Assembly (NCBI GenBank): GCA_937890045.1
Contig: CALBXV010000314.1
Location: 1 to 8,461 of the forward strand
Direction of reading: 5' to 3'
From: an uncultured archaeon
GTDB lineage: Archaea; Thermoproteota; Nitrososphaeria; Nitrososphaerales; CALBXV01
Length of the DNA: 8,461 nucleotides
Below, piece after piece: positions 1 through 7,298 of the stretch; positions within the stretch are counted from its first letter, which is position 1, and each line of letters opens with the position of its first letter. The notes beneath the pieces are model-generated. The model worked only from the letters and a program-made list of their open reading frames with translations. It was not told the origin of the DNA and did no database searches. Both the position numbers and the translations under genes were made by a program.

Positions 1-156
1 AGGTTTACCTGCTTTATTATTCATAACATAATTAACAAAATTATCATCCTCATCTGTAAATTTAAATTTATCACCACTAAATTTAGATTCAGATACGGGA
101 GCCATAAAATTACGAGTAGACCCTTTATATCCTTCTAATGTTCTTGGCTTAGCCAT
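1..156 (-). CDS. Unidentified phage protein, N-terminal 52 residues only
   Basis: The reading frame opens with ATG at 156-154 and stays open to the window edge, so only 52 residues are visible and the 3' end is missing. The start overlaps the stop of the upstream gp15-like gene as TAATG. It is preceded by the best SD in the window (GGGAGGTGA, 169-161, 7-nt spacer from GGAGG), which supports a real, well-translated gene. The protein begins MAKPRTLEGYKGSTRNF and is polar, with a Lys/Asp-rich stretch around residues 25-40. No signal peptide, membrane segment or recognisable motif is visible. In T4 the gene after 15 is 16 (small terminase), but nothing here lets me identify it as such. Its place in the operon suggests a virion or packaging protein; that is inference only. 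Confidence 0.75.
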   Translation of the reverse strand, partial: MAKPRTLEGYKGSTRNFMAPVSESKFSGDKFKFTDEDDNFVNYVMNNKAGKP

Positions 157-1505
157 TAAATCACCTCCCGTTGATATCCAATAAGAATAGAATCACCAAG
201 TAATATATTTATTCCAATTCCACTAGTTCCTAATTTACTTATATTTATATGTCTTTGATTAGTATTAAGATAAAAATCAACATTTGTACTATCTGTCTGA
301 TTAGTATTTGAACTTAAATCTAATCCATTTACTAATACATATACAGTACCACTTTTCATCCTTTTATTTGAATCTAATGTTGGTACATAAGTTGCAAATG
401 AAGATGATGCCGCGGAAGATGATGCATTTCCTGCAAACCGCTGAGAACCTACAAAATAAGCAGTATTTGCATATCCTAAACTTAATACAGATTTTGTATC
501 TGTACTAGATGAAGGTTCTCCTGTACTTCTCATAATATACATCGTTTCACCACCATAGGTATTTGTAAATTCTAAATCTTGTATTTGATTACCCACCTGA
601 CCAGCAATACCTCTAATAAAATCTGAAGATGCCCCTAATCCACTCTGTACACCTGTAGTATATCTTACCGTTTGTGCATTTGTATCTGGACTATATATAG
701 ATGATAAATGTAAACCACTTTCATCCATAATTTTTAAAGTTTTAGGTGAAAATGATTTATTTGTCAACATATAATTATTAAATTCTTTAGGTACAAGATA
801 ACCTCTAAATGAAAAACTAAAAGTAGTCTTAATCAACCTTTCATTATCAGCCATTTCAGTAGCATCGTCAAATGAATCTATAGCAACTCTAAATTTAAAC
901 TTACCTGGTTCTCCCCAATATGAACCATCACTCCAATTTATAGTTTCAACAATTTTATTCATTTGTTCAATATAAGTAGTCCATATAATACACTCATATG
1001 TCATTGTCATATAGTCAGGCATTGCTACAGAATAAAATTCCTGCGAAGGTTTTTTACCTTGCAATACTGAAAACCTATCATATCTATTTTCTTGAGTATA
1101 CTTTCTTTCAAATGTATAATGAAGTTTTGGATCTTCTGGATTCATTTTATCAACTGAAATGGTATCATCTTTAGCTAAACTATTTCTTTTAAAAACAACA
1201 AGAGGTATTATAAGTTGTTTTTTTGAATCTCTTAAATAACCTTGTCTCTGTATAGTTTTCCATCTTTCTGGATTGGCATAATATACAGGAACCTTAACAA
1301 CTTCACCATTTTCAACAACTGTAGGTTTTATTACCTCATTAAAATAATACATAATAGCTGCATCTATATCCATCAGTCCTACTGATACATCTTTAACAGT
1401 ATCCTTTTTTCTAGATAATTGTTGCGCTCTATTTTCTACAGGTGCTGCTCTAAGAGCACCAACTAACTTTCTTTGTGAACGTGGTAACGGTTTTAATCTT
1501 GCCAT
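156..1505 (-). CDS. 15: Tail sheath stabiliser/terminator-like protein (T4 gp15 type) with a long C-terminal extension
   Basis: A 449-residue protein. In T4-like phages gp15 forms the hexameric ring capping the tail tube and contracted sheath, where the tail meets the neck. Residues about 47-250 follow the gp15 pattern. There is a region with VVKVPVYYANPERW (T4 gp15 has a similar V-P-x-x-Y-A-S segment). Then comes YECIIWTTYIEQMNKIVETI (T4: Y-x-L-x-I-F-T-R-Y-x-x-x-M-x-Q-I-V-E). Then a KFKFRVAIDSFDD segment, and TTFSFSFRGYLVPKEF, matching the T4 strand ending in a G-W-x-x-P motif. The match is from memory of T4 gp15, not from a search. T4 gp15 is about 272 residues; here about 200 extra residues follow, rich in Ser/Thr/Asn and probably beta-structured. 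The start overlaps the previous stop as TAATG, with a weak SD (GAGAA, 1517-1513). Position right after the gp14-like gene agrees. Confidence 0.7.
   Translation of the reverse strand: MARLKPLPRSQRKLVGALRAAPVENRAQQLSRKKDTVKDVSVGLMDIDAAIMYYFNEVIKPTVVENGEVVKVPVYYANPERWKTIQRQGYLRDSKKQLIIPLVVFKRNSLAKDDTISVDKMNPEDPKLHYTFERKYTQENRYDRFSVLQGKKPSQEFYSVAMPDYMTMTYECIIWTTYIEQMNKIVETINWSDGSYWGEPGKFKFRVAIDSFDDATEMADNERLIKTTFSFSFRGYLVPKEFNNYMLTNKSFSPKTLKIMDESGLHLSSIYSPDTNAQTVRYTTGVQSGLGASSDFIRGIAGQVGNQIQDLEFTNTYGGETMYIMRSTGEPSSSTDTKSVLSLGYANTAYFVGSQRFAGNASSSAASSSFATYVPTLDSNKRMKSGTVYVLVNGLDLSSNTNQTDSTNVDFYLNTNQRHINISKLGTSGIGINILLGDSILIGYQREVI
161..169 (-). promoter_or_regulatory. Strong ribosome binding site for the gene starting at 156
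   Basis: The minus strand reads GGGAGGTGA, an extended match to the anti-SD of 16S rRNA, with 7 nt between GGAGG and the ATG. It lies inside the last codons of the gp15-like gene. It fixes the start of the downstream gene despite the TAATG overlap. Confidence 0.75.
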
Positions 1506-1994: not shown

Positions 1995-3140
1995 TTATCC
2001 TATAAAAATGGGATCGGGAACTTTTCTTAACTTTTCTTGTAAAAAGTCAGCTTCATCTCTATCTGCTTCTAAGAGCGCTCTCCTACTAGTAGTTTCTAAA
2101 GTTTCTCTTAATTGTGATAATAATTGATCTTTTTCTGTAGATGCTTCTGAACGTAATGTTTCACCATCAAGAGTTGTTTCTGCTCCAGGTATTGGAATAG
2201 AACCATACTTACTTCGTATCATTCCTAAAAGTTCTTTAGATAAAGAGTATCCATATTTTCTAATCCATTGTTTTCCTGGATCATTTATAAATTTATACTC
2301 CATATTGTCAAATTGAGCATTTGAAAAGTCAGATACAACGTTAACAGACCCACTATACTCTGCATGTAATGGATTATCCCTATCTGTTTTTGAAATGTAT
2401 TGAAATCTAAGTGTAAAATTAGTAGTGGGTCTTGGAAATATTCTAATCTGATTATTAGTCATTTCAAATGTATATGAAGATTTTCTTATTTGATCATTAA
2501 ACTCTATAGCTTGTGTTCTCATTAAATCTTCATGAATTGGCATCATTAAAAATGTTACCGCTGGAGAATAATCTCCCCAACCAAATTGATCTAACAAATT
2601 AATAGATCCCCCTCCTGTACCTGCATATGGATCAAAATATCTTGAAACAGCAGGTGATGCTTCATAAAATACCCTTTTTATTTCTATTGCACCACTACCT
2701 GAAGTATCTGTAAATATTTTATTTATATCATATGTTTGAGTACCACTTGTAATCGCTATAGATCCAGTTTGCCAACTTACAGGTCCACCAACTCCTGCTT
2801 CTGTACCATAACGTTCTGCTATTCTTATTTGATTCCCAAAAGTGGGTACTACGTGTTTATGCGTAAAATTAGAGGATGTTGGTTGTCCTGCTAATGAAAG
2901 TAAATTGTCTTTAATGTTAACTTGATTAACTTGTGATGAATATTCTGAGATAGATTCCTCGAAACAAGTATAAAATTGTGAATCTTGTAACTCAACTTCC
3001 ATAATAGGGTATCCAAGCCTCTTTGCACACCAATTTGCGAATTTTGGAGCTTCTGATTGAAATGTAGCATCATTATCATAAAACCCATAAGGTGTATTTC
3101 CACTTACTGCTGAGCCACTACCTGGCCATATAGCTTCCAT
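1995..3140 (-). CDS. 13: Neck protein, T4 gp13-like
   Basis: A 381-residue protein, longer than T4 gp13 (about 309). gp13 binds the portal after packaging and, with gp14, closes the head. The N-terminus has a segment I associate with the neck protein of marine T4-like phages: TPYGFYDNDATFQ (16-28), then WCAKRLGYPIMEVELQDSQF (37-56), then CFEESISEYSSQVNQVNIKD (59-78). A central beta-rich part carries QIRIFPRPTTNFTLRFQY. The C-terminal part reads WIRKYGYSLSKELLGMIRSK, then IPIPGAETTLDGETLRSEAS, then an amphipathic helix (EKDQLLSQLRETLE), the pattern I recall from gp13 C-termini. It is the first gene after the capsid terminator and has SD AGGAG at 3153-3149 with an 8-nt spacer. A generic 'virion structural protein' label would be the cautious alternative. 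Confidence 0.7.
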   Translation of the reverse strand: MEAIWPGSGSAVSGNTPYGFYDNDATFQSEAPKFANWCAKRLGYPIMEVELQDSQFYTCFEESISEYSSQVNQVNIKDNLLSLAGQPTSSNFTHKHVVPTFGNQIRIAERYGTEAGVGGPVSWQTGSIAITSGTQTYDINKIFTDTSGSGAIEIKRVFYEASPAVSRYFDPYAGTGGGSINLLDQFGWGDYSPAVTFLMMPIHEDLMRTQAIEFNDQIRKSSYTFEMTNNQIRIFPRPTTNFTLRFQYISKTDRDNPLHAEYSGSVNVVSDFSNAQFDNMEYKFINDPGKQWIRKYGYSLSKELLGMIRSKYGSIPIPGAETTLDGETLRSEASTEKDQLLSQLRETLETTSRRALLEADRDEADFLQEKLRKVPDPIFIG

Positions 3141-3247: not shown

Positions 3248-4876
3248 TTAGACATAGTTTACATCAGCAACGATAACTTTACCATAGAATTCCGGACGCA
3301 CGATTTTCTTCGCGTATCTGGTCATCACACCCTTACGAGGTGTAAAGTTTGTTGGATCGTATACCAATGGAGTCATAATTAGAGGTACATAAGGAGCATA
3401 CACTGCACCAGTTTCAAGGAAGTTACTTCCTCTGAAACCCATAAGAATTACATTTTCATGCATATATGGGTTCTTATAAACTGTAAAGCGATTGTTTAAC
3501 ATTCCAACCTTTTGTACGCCCATGGCCCACTGTTGGTTGGATGCATCACCAGTTGCTGTAGATGCATATCCTGGAATAGACTCGATGATAGTTGCTGTTT
3601 CAGGTGAAACCACCATGAAATTAGCACCACCACGCAGTGTCTTCTGATGAATCGTATTAGACACTGATTGGAGTTTATTACCTAACGTCTGGAACCAAGT
3701 TCCTTTCGTATATGCACTGGCATTTGCAGAACTTTCTGCAAATAATCCAGTAGCAGCATCATACTCGTATGCAGGTCTTGCAGACCAACGTTCAACTTTA
3801 GCATCAGCATTAGCCATCAACATATCAAGAATTTCAAGATCGATTTCCATCGAAATGTATTCACTCAACATTGAGGTAAGTTCAGCTTCAGCATCAACGC
3901 TATGGTAAGCATTTAAATCCTGCGCGAGTTCTGGAGTCCAAACGGCCTTCAGTTTCCGAGTCTTAGCGACAATCGGTACTGAAACCATCTGAATATCAAT
4001 CTCTGGAATGCCAACATCTGCTTCAGGTACAGCAGCACCTGCAGCAGCTTCAAAATCACCACGAGATGTATCAGTCGGTTGACGATGATACTTTATCTCC
4101 ATAGCAGCACCTTCTAGTTCATACTGTGAACCAGCAGAGGCTACAATCATAGTAATTTGTGAATCTGGAGCGGCAACAGTACCAGATATCTGCGTATAAG
4201 CAGGATACCAAGTACTTAATGTCGTAGCAACACTAGCAACAGGTTCGAAAGCGCGAACACCTTCAAGATCTGGACGTGTAAGTGTAGATGTTGCGAACGA
4301 AATCTTCCGTAAGTTACCAAAAGAGGCACTTAGTGAAGGTTCGAAATCAACATCTTTCCACGTTACAGAACCAGAAGTATAAGTTACAGATGTTGCCGAC
4401 CTATCGTTAATTGAATACCCAAACTTACCTGCACCGTACAGACCACCATCTGCATCATCGTTTGAACCTGATGTATCACCATGAACATCAGAACCAACGT
4501 TATGCAAACTAGTTTGTGCTGTACCATACTTAAAGTCTAGATAAAAAATCAGTCCAGAAGGAAGGTTCATAGGTTGAACAGAAACAAAGTCCTGTGCAGC
4601 TATTTCACCAAAAATTCTTCGGACCAACGGAAGTGCGACACCTGACCACTCTTCTTTATTAGAAGTTGTGCTTACTCTTGAAGCTTCATCAATTAATTGA
4701 CGAGCCTGATTCTCAAGTAGCACGGCCATTCCGTGAGTTTGTGTAGAGTCCTTAAGACCGTCTAACAGACCAGTAGGAGACCATTTTTTGACAAGTTTCT
4801 TTGTCTGGTCTCTTAACTGCCTAGCGGGGTTATACCCACTCATAATTTTCTCAATAGATGAAAATCTATCTGCCAT
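3248..4876 (-). CDS. 23: Major capsid protein, T4 gp23 family (precursor with cleaved N-terminus)
   Basis: A 542-residue precursor (T4 gp23: 521) forming the hexamers of the head shell. Clear family segments are PLVRRIFGEIAAQDF followed by VSVQPMNLPSGLIFYLDFKY (about 83-117), RKLKAVWTPELAQDLNAYHS in the middle, GGANFMVVSPETATIIE, and the C-terminal RKGVMTRYAKKIVRPEFYGK. The N-terminal 64 residues look like the removable delta piece. LIDE|A at E64-A65 fits the T4 prohead protease rule (Leu/Ile-x-Glu, then cut) and lies almost where T4 gp23 is cut (E65). The Gly/Ser/Asp-rich stretch at about 125-210 probably belongs to a variable surface-exposed part. Start ATG at 4876 has SD GGAG with a 7-nt spacer, 21 nt after the scaffold stop. 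Base composition is clearly richer in GC than the neck genes, as expected for a very highly expressed gene. Confidence 0.97.
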   Translation of the reverse strand: MADRFSSIEKIMSGYNPARQLRDQTKKLVKKWSPTGLLDGLKDSTQTHGMAVLLENQARQLIDEASRVSTTSNKEEWSGVALPLVRRIFGEIAAQDFVSVQPMNLPSGLIFYLDFKYGTAQTSLHNVGSDVHGDTSGSNDDADGGLYGAGKFGYSINDRSATSVTYTSGSVTWKDVDFEPSLSASFGNLRKISFATSTLTRPDLEGVRAFEPVASVATTLSTWYPAYTQISGTVAAPDSQITMIVASAGSQYELEGAAMEIKYHRQPTDTSRGDFEAAAGAAVPEADVGIPEIDIQMVSVPIVAKTRKLKAVWTPELAQDLNAYHSVDAEAELTSMLSEYISMEIDLEILDMLMANADAKVERWSARPAYEYDAATGLFAESSANASAYTKGTWFQTLGNKLQSVSNTIHQKTLRGGANFMVVSPETATIIESIPGYASTATGDASNQQWAMGVQKVGMLNNRFTVYKNPYMHENVILMGFRGSNFLETGAVYAPYVPLIMTPLVYDPTNFTPRKGVMTRYAKKIVRPEFYGKVIVADVNYV

Positions 4877-4897: not shown

Positions 4898-6127
4898 TTA
4901 AGAATTAATATTAGCTAACTTCTTAAACCGATTCCTCAACGAAGATGCTTCAGAAATTACTTTCCGAGACTTAGACTTAGTTGAAGCAACAGCTTTAGAT
5001 GCTGAGCCTTTACTTTCCTTAATTCCACGTTTAGCACCACCACCAAAAGATTCTGCCATCGTTGCGTAAACAAGTTTGACTTCCCTTAGTGTTCGTGCTC
5101 TATCAAAAGTCTCAATGACTTTAACTTTCTTTTCTTCGCTTAGGCTATGTGCTCTAAACAATTTATTAGTGAAAAGTAGTTTAGCATTGAGTAGATTAAC
5201 TTCATTCAGTTTAGAACGAAGATATCTAACCACCTTGCGATGCTCTTCTAGCTCATTTTTAAGCGCTTCAGCATCCTCTTCTTCTGCTTCTTCATCATCT
5301 TCAGTGAGTGCTTTAAGAATTTCTTCGAGATCGATGTCTTCATTTTCTACGCCATCTTGTAGATCATCAACAACTTCCTCTTCGCCTTCTTCACCCTCTG
5401 GTGATTCACCAGCATCTGCAGGTTCTTCAGAACCCTGACCAGCGTCAGACGAATCTGATGCCTCAGGTGAAGGTTCTTTATTCTCTGCATCGCCAACATC
5501 AGAAGAATCAAGATCTGAATCAGAATCGGCACCAGCGTCGGTTAAGTCATCAACGACTTCCTCTTCGCCTTCTTCGCCAGCTTCTTGTTCAGTAATCTCT
5601 GCTTCCAATTCCTTTAGAATTGCTTCAAGATCAAGATCTTCTTCTGCTTCTTCTTCAGCAGCTTCTTCTTCACCCTCTTCATCCTGTTCATCCATAGCGG
5701 GGTCTTCTTCAGCTTCCTCTTCATCAGCAGGAGCTTCTTCAGCTTCCTCTTCATCTTGTTCAGCAACAACGGGAGCGTACTTGACACCATTTATTTCAAT
5801 GACGCCTTCTTCTTCCATTTCTTCTTCGGGCTCTTCAGCTTCTTCATCTTCCTCTTCCATTTCACCTTCTTCAGGTTCAACAGCAGGTTCTTCTACACCA
5901 AAGCCATCACCAGAATCTTCTTCACCCTCTTCTTCAGCGGGTTCTTCTTCTTCTGGAGCTTCCTCATCATCCTGTTCTTCCATATCTATTTCACTCTGGA
6001 TTTTCTTGGATAACATAGATTTTAACTTAGGTGTGAATGCTTCTTCGAGAGCCATCTTCGCATTTGCAAGTGCGGTTTCTCTAACAGCTTTTGCGTCAGC
6101 AATAGCTTCTTTTAAGAGATCATCCAT
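4898..6127 (-). CDS. 22: Capsid assembly scaffold / prohead core protein (gp22-like), highly acidic
   Basis: A 409-residue protein directly upstream of the capsid gene, the position of T4 gene 22, whose product forms the prohead core and is later chopped up by the prohead protease. Residues 1-45 are a helical start (MDDLLKEAIADAKAVRETAL...). Residues about 46-287 are almost entirely Glu/Asp/Ala/Gly with few hydrophobics. Residues 288-360 are a helical, coiled-coil-like part (KVVRYLRSKLNEVNLLNAKL; FDRARTLREVKLVYATMAES). Residues 362-409 are a basic Ser/Lys tail. Candidate cuts of the Leu/Ile-x-Glu type are plentiful (LKE7|A, LEE29|A, ISE393|A and others). It is longer than T4 gp22 (269) because of the acidic centre. 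ATG 6127 is preferred over a TTG nine codons earlier because SD GGGAG lies 7 nt before the ATG. The acidic tract creates long spurious frames on the other strand. Confidence 0.85.
   Translation of the reverse strand: MDDLLKEAIADAKAVRETALANAKMALEEAFTPKLKSMLSKKIQSEIDMEEQDDEEAPEEEEPAEEEGEEDSGDGFGVEEPAVEPEEGEMEEEDEEAEEPEEEMEEEGVIEINGVKYAPVVAEQDEEEAEEAPADEEEAEEDPAMDEQDEEGEEEAAEEEAEEDLDLEAILKELEAEITEQEAGEEGEEEVVDDLTDAGADSDSDLDSSDVGDAENKEPSPEASDSSDAGQGSEEPADAGESPEGEEGEEEVVDDLQDGVENEDIDLEEILKALTEDDEEAEEEDAEALKNELEEHRKVVRYLRSKLNEVNLLNAKLLFTNKLFRAHSLSEEKKVKVIETFDRARTLREVKLVYATMAESFGGGAKRGIKESKGSASKAVASTKSKSRKVISEASSLRNRFKKLANINS
5361..5580 (-). repeat. Internal duplication in the acidic region of the scaffold gene
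   Basis: The 12-residue string GEEGEEEVVDDL is encoded twice, around 5398-5363 and 5577-5544, with near-identical DNA. Each copy lies near an acidic, hydrophobic-spaced helix of similar sequence (LDLEAILKELEAE and IDLEEILKALTED). The surrounding Glu/Ala tract is low-complexity GAA/GAG-rich DNA. This looks like expansion by slippage or unequal recombination within the gene. Confidence 0.75.
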
Positions 6128-6170: not shown

Positions 6171-6228
6171 TTTTGGATTTAATTATCCGAAAGGAACTAC
6201 CTTATCATGTTTTGATTTTGGATTTAAT
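6171..6228. repeat. 13-bp direct repeat TTTTGGATTTAAT, two copies
   Basis: Perfect copies at 6171-6183 and 6216-6228, 45 bp start to start, in the leader before the scaffold gene. The spacing is close to four helical turns, so a pair of binding sites for a regulator is conceivable. Each copy overlaps an arm of a neighbouring inverted repeat. Confidence 0.65.
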
Positions 6229-6357
6229 ATAGTTATTGGGAACTATAATTTGAGTTACTATGTAGTACGTTATATAGGATTGCCTGAAAACGGCAGATAA
6301 CGTATTCTTTATTACATTACATATATAAGTATAAAGTTTTGCGCCAAAACGTCACGA

Positions 6358-6558
6358 TCAGTAAGAATTATTTTCTTTCTCTACTTTGTATTTATTTCGT
6401 AATCGTGCTTTAGCTTTCTTTTCACGTTTTACATCAGATGGTTTTCTATAGAATTCTCTTTCTCTAAGAGTAACAAATAACCTATCTTCTTTTATTTTTC
6501 TTTTTAATATACGAAGTGCTTTATCTATATTATTATTTTTTACATTTACTTCTATCAA
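6358..6558 (-). CDS. rpsU: Ribosomal protein bS21 (phage-encoded), TTG start
   Basis: A 66-residue basic protein with the full bS21 pattern: N-terminal IEVNVKNN, helix IDKALRILKRKIKED, then FVTLREREFYRKPSDVKREK and a Lys/Arg-rich C-terminus. Cellular bS21 is about 55-71 residues, sits on the 30S platform near the anti-SD end of 16S rRNA, and helps initiation. A phage copy may enter host ribosomes and favour phage messages; phage bS21 genes are known in marine and freshwater phages. The start is TTG at 6558. It falls exactly at the family's usual first residue, has SD AGAGG (6570-6566) 7 nt upstream, and no in-frame ATG lies between it and the upstream in-frame stop. The gene follows the previous stop by 17 nt and so is probably cotranscribed with it. 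It is AT-rich like its upstream neighbours. Confidence 0.93.
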   Translation of the reverse strand: MIEVNVKNNNIDKALRILKRKIKEDRLFVTLREREFYRKPSDVKREKKAKARLRNKYKVEKENNSY

Positions 6559-6565
6559 ACTAAAA

Positions 6566-6570
6566 CCTCT
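6566..6570 (-). promoter_or_regulatory. Ribosome binding site supporting the TTG start of bS21
   Basis: The minus strand reads AGAGG with 7 nt to TTG at 6558, the same spacing as at ATG-started genes here. No ATG or GTG in frame fits this SD, so the TTG start is well supported. Confidence 0.7.
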
Positions 6571-6575
6571 TAAAT

Positions 6576-7283
6576 TTATTCAGCTGCTTTCCAATTGCTT
6601 TGGACCCAATTAAAAAATTCTTTCTTTTCGCTATCATCTAAGTCAGCTGGCGAATCAACAGACTTACCAATTTCTTCACCATAATCTTTTAATGCCTTAT
6701 CAAAGAAAGCAGAATATTCATCTTTACCACCACTTTCTGGACTATCAAGATCATCCATCTCTTCTACATTCTCTTCTTCTTCATGACTCCTATAAGCTTT
6801 AGATGCTTCTTCAACTTCACTAATATCATAATACCTATTTATGATATGACCCATATCTTCATATAATGCAGACATTCTCTCTTGCATAGATTGTGCTTCG
6901 GTAGCTACTTTTGAAAAACTACCCGCAAGAACATTTAATTCTTTCATATTACGATTAACAGAAACTTTATCAAACCAATCTTCGGTTTCACTTAAAGTAT
7001 GTGCTCTAGCTGTCTTAGCTAATTTAGAAAGATGTGTTGCAACATCTTTTAAGTTACCTTCACGATGTATAAATGAACCAATTTCATTATATTTACCAAC
7101 TGCTTCTAAAAAAGCACCTTCATCAACACTTGCCTCTGTATCACCATAGATATCTTTAACAATATCACGTAGTTTACTAGATTTAGCTTTTCTTGATCCA
7201 ATTCCAGCTTCTCTAAAAGGTTTTGTCGTTACAACTCCACCTACTGTTGCAAATTCTTTAATTAAATCTTTCATTTTTAACAT
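6576..7283 (-). CDS. Unknown helical protein with acidic linker, probably virion or prohead-core associated
   Basis: About 235 residues; I do not recognise a named family. Numbered from the first of two adjacent ATGs, the N-terminus (MMLKMKDLIKEFATVGGVVT) is followed by a basic patch (SRKAKSSKLR). A mainly helical region runs to about 150 (NLKDVATHLSKLAKTARA; MQERMSALYEDMGHIINRYY). An acidic linker at about 157-182 includes EEEENVEEMDDLD. A small C-terminal helical module ends EKKEFFNWVQSNWKAAE. This ending resembles one I have seen on other marine phage structural proteins (inference from memory). LSE|T and ISE|V match the prohead protease rule, so processing inside the head is possible. Two adjacent ATGs exist (7286, 7283). 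SD AGGAG at 7295-7291 lies 7 nt from the second and only 4 nt from the first, so the second is preferred. There is no membrane segment. Position between an unknown gene and bS21, upstream of scaffold, suggests a head role. Confidence 0.8.
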   Translation of the reverse strand: MLKMKDLIKEFATVGGVVTTKPFREAGIGSRKAKSSKLRDIVKDIYGDTEASVDEGAFLEAVGKYNEIGSFIHREGNLKDVATHLSKLAKTARAHTLSETEDWFDKVSVNRNMKELNVLAGSFSKVATEAQSMQERMSALYEDMGHIINRYYDISEVEEASKAYRSHEEEENVEEMDDLDSPESGGKDEYSAFFDKALKDYGEEIGKSVDSPADLDDSEKKEFFNWVQSNWKAAE

Positions 7284-7298
7284 CATTAATCTCCTATT

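Follow-up and report, generated by a model that had tools for sequence, protein, structure and literature searches.

A gene on the minus strand of the window (the whole 8,461-nucleotide stretch of DNA analysed here) encodes what is, judged by its sequence, a genuine ribosomal protein bS21. In related phages this gene keeps a fixed place among the head genes, and its start codon has lost the preference for ATG, a conclusion that we regard as secure. The explanation that we favour, and consider moderately probable, is a functional phage bS21 that would be produced late from its head-region site, exchange into the host 30S subunit and aid initiation led by Shine-Dalgarno (SD) sequences. Ribosome takeover by phages has already been proposed (PMC9723584, PMC6375957), and the present gene adds another case. 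What is new is the co-directional, SD-using lineage, the lost ATG preference, the predicted off-ATG starts of alphaproteobacterial rpsU and a covarying leader ahead of a scaffold-like gene, and of these the weak rpsU starts and the structured leader seem most worth following.

Table 1. Features of the window discussed in the text (positions are those of the window).
Feature	Position	Strand	Basis
bS21 (rpsU) coding sequence, 66 aa, probable TTG start at 6558-6556	6358..6558	-	ORF, Pfam, PHROG, PDB, homologues
SD AAGAGGT; (A)GAGGT-type SDs recur 5' of bS21 in many relatives	6565..6571	-	Sequence
Upstream gene, 236 aa, stop codon at 6578-6576, 17 nt ahead of the bS21 TTG	6576..7286	-	ORF
Terminator-like hairpin GTTTTG-GCG-CAAAAC with T-rich tail, just 3' of the bS21 stop	6328..6350	-	Suggestive only
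Two-hairpin leader of the scaffold-like gene	6213..6329	-	Alignment, covariation, covariance model
Scaffold-like acidic gene, ATG 6127-6125, SD GGGAG	4898..6127	-	Named from place and acidity
Major capsid protein gp23 (5.6e-75)	3248..4876	-	Pfam, PHROG
Head-tail adaptor	1995-3140	-	Pfam, PHROG
Tail-sheath stabiliser	156-1505	-	Pfam, PHROG

Identity and start of the phage gene

The original prediction held that the product matches bS21 along its full length, and profile searches returned this family. Pfam PF01165 aligned ORF residues 3-55 with positions 1-54 of its 55, in effect the whole profile (E 7.6e-14; 51.6 bits against a gathering cut-off of 27), and PHROG 21469, 'ribosomal protein S21', matched the same ORF at 7.9e-10. 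A comparison with the PDB gave 23 distinct sequences at E <= 0.001, all of them bS21 or S21 by name and one of them mitochondrial, and the phage protein retains the REFY-KP stretch of the solved ribosomal bS21 chains. Public metagenome collections contain many near-identical proteins: among the best 120 of 201 homologues, 37 were 86-100% identical with a query coverage of at least 98%, and a single near-identical homologue was present on 109 contigs.

The TTG assigned to the gene beforehand is likely its real start, since the SD stands 6 nt ahead of it, the ORF contains no in-frame ATG and no internal Met, and 7 of 16 retrieved homologues (16 taken from the 201 found) are stored with L as their first residue, which is an independent sign of a non-ATG start.

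Conservation of the genomic site

Pfam and PHROG matches mark the window as a head and neck cluster of the T4-like type, in which two upstream genes are followed by bS21, the leader, the acidic scaffold-like gene, gp23, the head-tail adaptor, a further ORF and the tail-sheath stabiliser (Table 1). The profile matches of gp23, the adaptor and the stabiliser agree with the predicted placement of bS21 amid head-region genes, directly 5' of the scaffold-capsid leader. The scaffold-like ORF had no match in Pfam and PHROG searches, and its relative in Flavobacterium phage immuto bears the annotation 'DNA polymerase phi-like protein'. Identities of the capsid protein were 56% with an uncultured 484-kb phage, 53% with Microcystis phage Mel-JY01 and 52% with Flavobacterium phages (immuto).

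We collected two sets of loci from IMG/VR, one through the capsid protein (best 80 of 83 confirmed) and one through the upstream protein (best 80 of 180 confirmed); the sets share contigs and many of their loci are near-identical. Related phages do keep rpsU at this site, a point that the original prediction had proposed to check and on which absence would have counted against it: among capsid-set loci whose DNA extended at least 2.5 kb ahead of the capsid ORF, bS21 lay within 2 kb of that ORF in 53/57, while in the remaining four it was farther off (three loci) or was not seen in the DNA examined (L043). In the upstream-gene set, our script placed bS21 at the site in 63 of the 64 loci with enough DNA, and in its one exception (L126) bS21 is adjacent as well, missed through an overlapping open frame. 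Where a distinct locus had both bS21 and a relative of the upstream gene (76 loci), the latter ended 60 nt or less from the start of bS21 in 52, and bS21 and the capsid gene were co-directional wherever both were present (128/128 loci). The median dN/dS of bS21 was 0.144, taken from 70 non-independent pairs that were equally long and 75-98.5% identical; the gene is under purifying selection. Flavobacterium phage immuto, although a capsid relative, had no bS21 in the 19.6 kb examined, and it is not among the 18 phage records compared.

Two further observations concern the upstream gene. At one locus that was found through bS21 itself (L014:384-1248), the upstream gene and a TTG-started bS21 occur together, but the 6 kb that follow bS21 yielded no scaffold or capsid relative. 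Residues about 179-236 of the upstream protein resemble ORFs from nine phages of Pseudomonas putida (about 41%), with no match reported there for the rest of the protein; this C-terminal part is possibly a shared head-targeting tail.

Comparison with known phage bS21 genes

Chen et al. (2022; PMC9723584) described phage bS21 genes beside structural genes, found them transcribed with late genes in lake phages, and proposed ribosome takeover; their survey of published phages, 900 in all and with ocean viromes among them, placed bS21 near structural genes in 388, and relatives of the present lineage may be among these 388. Their bS21 genes have capsid, protease, portal and terminase genes only a few genes away, at a conserved site, and placement in the capsid region was likewise found in the window and its relatives. 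The 47 genomes of that study differ from ours in that their bS21 is on the opposite strand and their Bacteroidetes hosts are SD-poor, whereas here the gene shares the strand of the capsid gene and the lineage uses SDs.

Similar bS21 proteins also occur in the marine Pelagibacter phages HTVC008M (KC465899) and Mosig (MT647606), where the neighbours of the gene are AAA/cobS-like and peptidase genes in the vicinity of the sliding clamp, and not the capsid gene. The HTVC008M gene starts at ATG, unlike that of the window, while the Mosig gene (L022:6995) starts at TTG behind a strong SD, AAGGAGGT, at a genomic site other than that of the window. A further comparable case is Mel-JY01 (PP395634), in which an annotated RpsU has a putative prohead protease on one side and the capsid gene on the other, and relatives of the upstream and scaffold-like genes are present; its rpsU begins with ATG at an extended N-terminus and stands two ORFs before the scaffold-like ORF.

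SD usage and host

Counting a gene as SD-carrying at an anti-SD duplex energy of -4.4 or lower, we found an SD at 5/6 of the other called genes of the window, in keeping with the clear SDs noted in the original prediction, and a mean of 0.72 of called genes across those distinct loci in which four or more genes were called. The same script returned 0.74 for Mel-JY01 (19 genes), 0.25 for the 484-kb phage (16 genes) and 0.11 for immuto (18 genes). The 484-kb phage (L025; LR756508.1) has the same bS21-scaffold-capsid order, with a relative of the upstream protein about 5.5 kb away, and, being SD-poor (25% of its 16 called genes), may infect a host without SD use.

In Bacteroidia the anti-SD is hidden in the ribosome (PMC9976891). 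Such a host is, on indirect evidence, unlikely for the present lineage, since it is SD-using and carries bS21 co-directionally, unlike the 47 Bacteroidetes phages of Chen et al. The idea of a phage-specialised ribosome is thereby extended from lake Bacteroidetes phages to a widespread lineage that uses SDs, which makes it unlikely that keeping the anti-SD blocked is the general reason for a phage to carry bS21.

The proposal to place the host by comparing bS21 itself did not succeed: the best identity among 82 rpsU proteins from Alphaproteobacteria and other Pseudomonadota was 42%, and the best matches of the phage set scattered. A contig scan was equally uninformative, giving 13 loci at 37-52% identity that were spread over Chlamydiota, Bradyrhizobium, Thermodesulfobacteriota and another bacterium.

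Loss of ATG preference in the phage lineage

The 137 loci contained 79 distinct bS21 DNAs, of which 78 were used, one being cut off. Start codons were chosen by anti-SD duplex energy with a bonus of 0.8 kcal for ATG, and the calls were TTG in 53, ATG in 20 and GTG in 5, so that 58/78 distinct copies were non-ATG. At seven TTG sites (L042, L056, L060, L162, L164, L179, L195) the SD spacing was unusually short. The same picker called the upstream gene 73 ATG and 1 GTG, the scaffold-like gene 75 ATG and 1 TTG, and the capsid gene 71 ATG with 1 uncalled, which together makes 2/221 non-ATG among the flanking genes (Fisher p 7e-42 against bS21, relatedness ignored). The next gene upstream (49 ATG, 6 GTG, 3 TTG) was excluded because its matches were fragmentary, and including it would give 11/279. 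A loose caller applied to the remaining genes, from 80 aa upwards, returned ATG 829, GTG 58 and TTG 58.

Relatedness was taken into account on a tree of 63 capsid rows, along which the bS21 start codon changed at least 8 times. Median numbers of changes at invariant capsid residues were 14 (1-22) for fourfold sites, 10 (0-19) for twofold sites and 17 (5-26) for Leu codons, so the start codon moves nearly as freely as the silent sites, with their medians of 10-14. A three-state model on this tree had its equilibrium at ATG 0.43, TTG 0.43 and GTG 0.14, and it rejected a neighbour-like ATG dominance of 0.99 (p 5e-5). It gave no preference for TTG over ATG (p 0.99), which leaves selection for TTG as such unsupported. 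The RNA fold at the start gave no signal (mean z -0.13 over 78 sites).

How the start codon came to vary can be read in two ways, both of which are compatible with exchange of the phage protein into the 30S subunit. The reading that fares better, whose chances we hold to be finely balanced, concerns the start codon only: little bS21 would be needed, and ATG, TTG and GTG would be interchangeable, the weak start carrying no meaning beyond that. The model equilibrium, which is about that of an AT-rich genome with no preference, the rejected ATG dominance and the rate of change, close to that of silent sites, all fit such relaxed demand. The suggestion that TTG keeps the level of bS21 low also fits the loss of ATG, although the tree-aware model cannot separate it from indifference to the start codon.

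Start codons of bacterial rpsU

The second reading draws on bacterial rpsU genes, which we examined in 58 genomes from the class of Bradyrhizobium; 53 had a match, and all 56 rpsU matches (loci L204, L211, L214-L267) were read. Starts were picked within about seven codons round the conserved N-terminus, with bonuses of 3, 2 and 1.5 kcal for ATG, GTG and TTG. The predicted starts were GTG 27, ATG 10, TTG 6, ATC 5, ATA 5, ATT 2 and CTG 1, or 46/56 non-ATG. The 13 AUH or CUG calls are predictions, which a true start further upstream could make wrong; duplex energy was -6.0 or lower in 12 of them. TTG also starts one rpsU copy in each of three Bradyrhizobium (L110, L112, L113).

As a control we called bS18 in 30 of the same 53 genomes, of which 28 had a match and 27 were called, with 26 ATG and 1 GTG. 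The difference from rpsU (46/56 against 1/27 non-ATG, Fisher p 2e-12) is between pickers that are not identical, the bS18 picker reaching up to 60 codons upstream and the rpsU picker only about seven. Two of the bS18 calls are faulty, L289 having been taken from the wrong strand and L288 from an internal GTG; an earlier motif, which was replaced because it found only 11/28 (all ATG), gives ATG for both. A phylum-wide draw of 60 genomes (58 with a match, 63 matches) added 26 new loci, the remaining matches having no locus or being already included; in these 26 the start followed the type of N-terminus: ATG in 14/15 with an MPxVKV-like N-terminus, and GTG or TTG in 11/11 of the DNNVDQ type. The phage protein resembles the DNNVDQ type.

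These bacterial genes may point to a feedback that could be added to the favoured explanation: initiation at a weak codon behind a strong SD would depend on whether the ribosome contains bS21, so that the phage copy would cap its own amount and might also turn down the host gene. The excess of non-ATG starts in alphaproteobacterial rpsU, the low duplex energies at nearly all AUH and CUG calls, the contrast with bS18 in the same genomes and the off-ATG majority among the phage copies are in its favour, as are two published cases in which an unusual initiation region has, or is presumed to have, a connection with feedback. The rpsU gene of F. johnsoniae is subject to autoregulation at its initiation region, exerted by ribosomes without bS21 (PMC9976891), and the UUG start of E. 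coli rpsT is believed, not proven, to serve autoregulation (PMC10931766); the former uses an extended SD, and the latter encodes bS20, not bS21. Against feedback stand the equal weights of ATG and TTG in the tree-aware fit, the ordinary folding of the phage starts and the chance that the bacterial AUH and CUG calls are wrong, and we consider it unlikely. Relaxed demand, for its part, leaves those predicted starts (13/56) unexplained in bacteria where bS21 is an ordinary ribosomal component. A more specific version, in which DNNVDQ-type alphaproteobacterial and phage rpsU share this feedback and the phage copy joins the host loop, fixes its own dose and, with phage bS21 filling the ribosomes, shuts off the host gene, seems to us rather improbable.

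Among the matches listed in a search of open-licence PMC papers we found no report of weak rpsU starts in phages or Alphaproteobacteria, and the available texts of PMC9723584 and PMC6375957 contain no mention of TTG, UUG or 'start codon'. If the predictions are right, the weak rpsU start is even commoner in Alphaproteobacteria than in the phages, and it may bear on how the dose of bS21 is set.

A possible role in the host ribosome

In the explanation that we favour, phage bS21 would be made in the late phase and exchange into host 30S subunits, and subunits carrying it would keep or raise initiation on SD-led phage messages. The weak start codon would draw from a strongly transcribed late region an amount of bS21 suited to ribosomes and not to capsids. 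The benefit might lie in supply of the protein or in a changed preference for mRNAs. Several published observations on bS21 are relevant here: it is a late-joining, exchangeable ribosomal protein (PMC10931766), a Francisella homologue alters which mRNAs are translated (PMC9578407), and the HTVC008M protein enters E. coli 70S ribosomes (Mizuno et al., 2019; PMC6375957). The roughly 5% activity of the E. coli ribosomes that carried it speaks against our explanation, as do the exceptional capsid-set loci, L014 and immuto. This entry, like the late transcription seen in lake phages, concerns phages other than the present one. Chen et al. (PMC9723584) raised packaging as a possibility, and the fixed place of bS21 among head genes, close to the upstream ORF, would fit a protein that acts away from the ribosome, perhaps as a small RNA-binding component of the virion head. 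We hold this to be very unlikely given that the REFY-KP stretch is kept and that HTVC008M and Mosig carry bS21 elsewhere, so that the head site is not needed.

A structured leader precedes the scaffold-like gene

Between bS21 and the scaffold-like gene we found a leader with two hairpins, whose stems in the window are 6303-6297/6273-6267 and 6247-6241/6234-6228 and which has counterparts in relatives (e.g. L196:6825-6934 and L043:5732-5845). Of 71 leaders, L025 and L105 were set aside, the trimming motif was present in 67/69 (it misses L079 and L050), and 56/67 were aligned. The alignment supports 14 pairs, 9 of which have changed on both sides, and none is broken in 784 cells. Among 55 distinct rows, 770/770 cells pair, compared with 87% in shuffled and 15-50% in slid alignments, and 95 cells are doubly changed compared with 19.5 in shuffles. 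Two other measures were not outstanding against shuffles, namely the number of doubly changed pairs (9 against 7.3, with 36/500 shuffles as high) and the number of pair types (12 against 14.4). Only 1 of the 770 cells is a G-U, so an inverted repeat acting at the level of DNA is possible.

A covariance model of the leader, run over 78 sources, found it at E < 1e-4 in 56 of the 59 loci that include the beginning of the scaffold-like gene; the exceptions were immuto (L027; E 0.037, weak), the 484-kb phage (0.045) and Mel-JY01 (6.2, chance-level). A search of 18 further phage loci with bS21, from beyond the lineage, did not find the leader. Rfam had no match in it, and gave two sub-threshold snoRNA-like matches inside the scaffold-like gene. 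The leader was also found in L090, L091 and L106, where bS21 is 2.5-6 kb away, and in L043, where bS21 was not seen. Because it stands before the scaffold-like gene even without an adjacent bS21, the leader belongs to the scaffold/capsid unit, and bS21 as its owner was ruled out.

A terminator-like hairpin was present after bS21 in 43/69 loci, where mononucleotide shuffles led us to expect 20. This excess suggests that the upstream unit closes with bS21; a stricter terminator scan found none in the window. Followed as it is by the structured leader, the hairpin makes joint transcription of bS21 with the scaffold and capsid genes doubtful.

An AT-rich motif around TATATTTATATA also recurs immediately 5' of the two hairpins, for instance at L108:5579-5610, with ATATTTAT in 60/71 leaders. 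The reverse complement of this motif contains TATAAATA, the T4 late promoter box.
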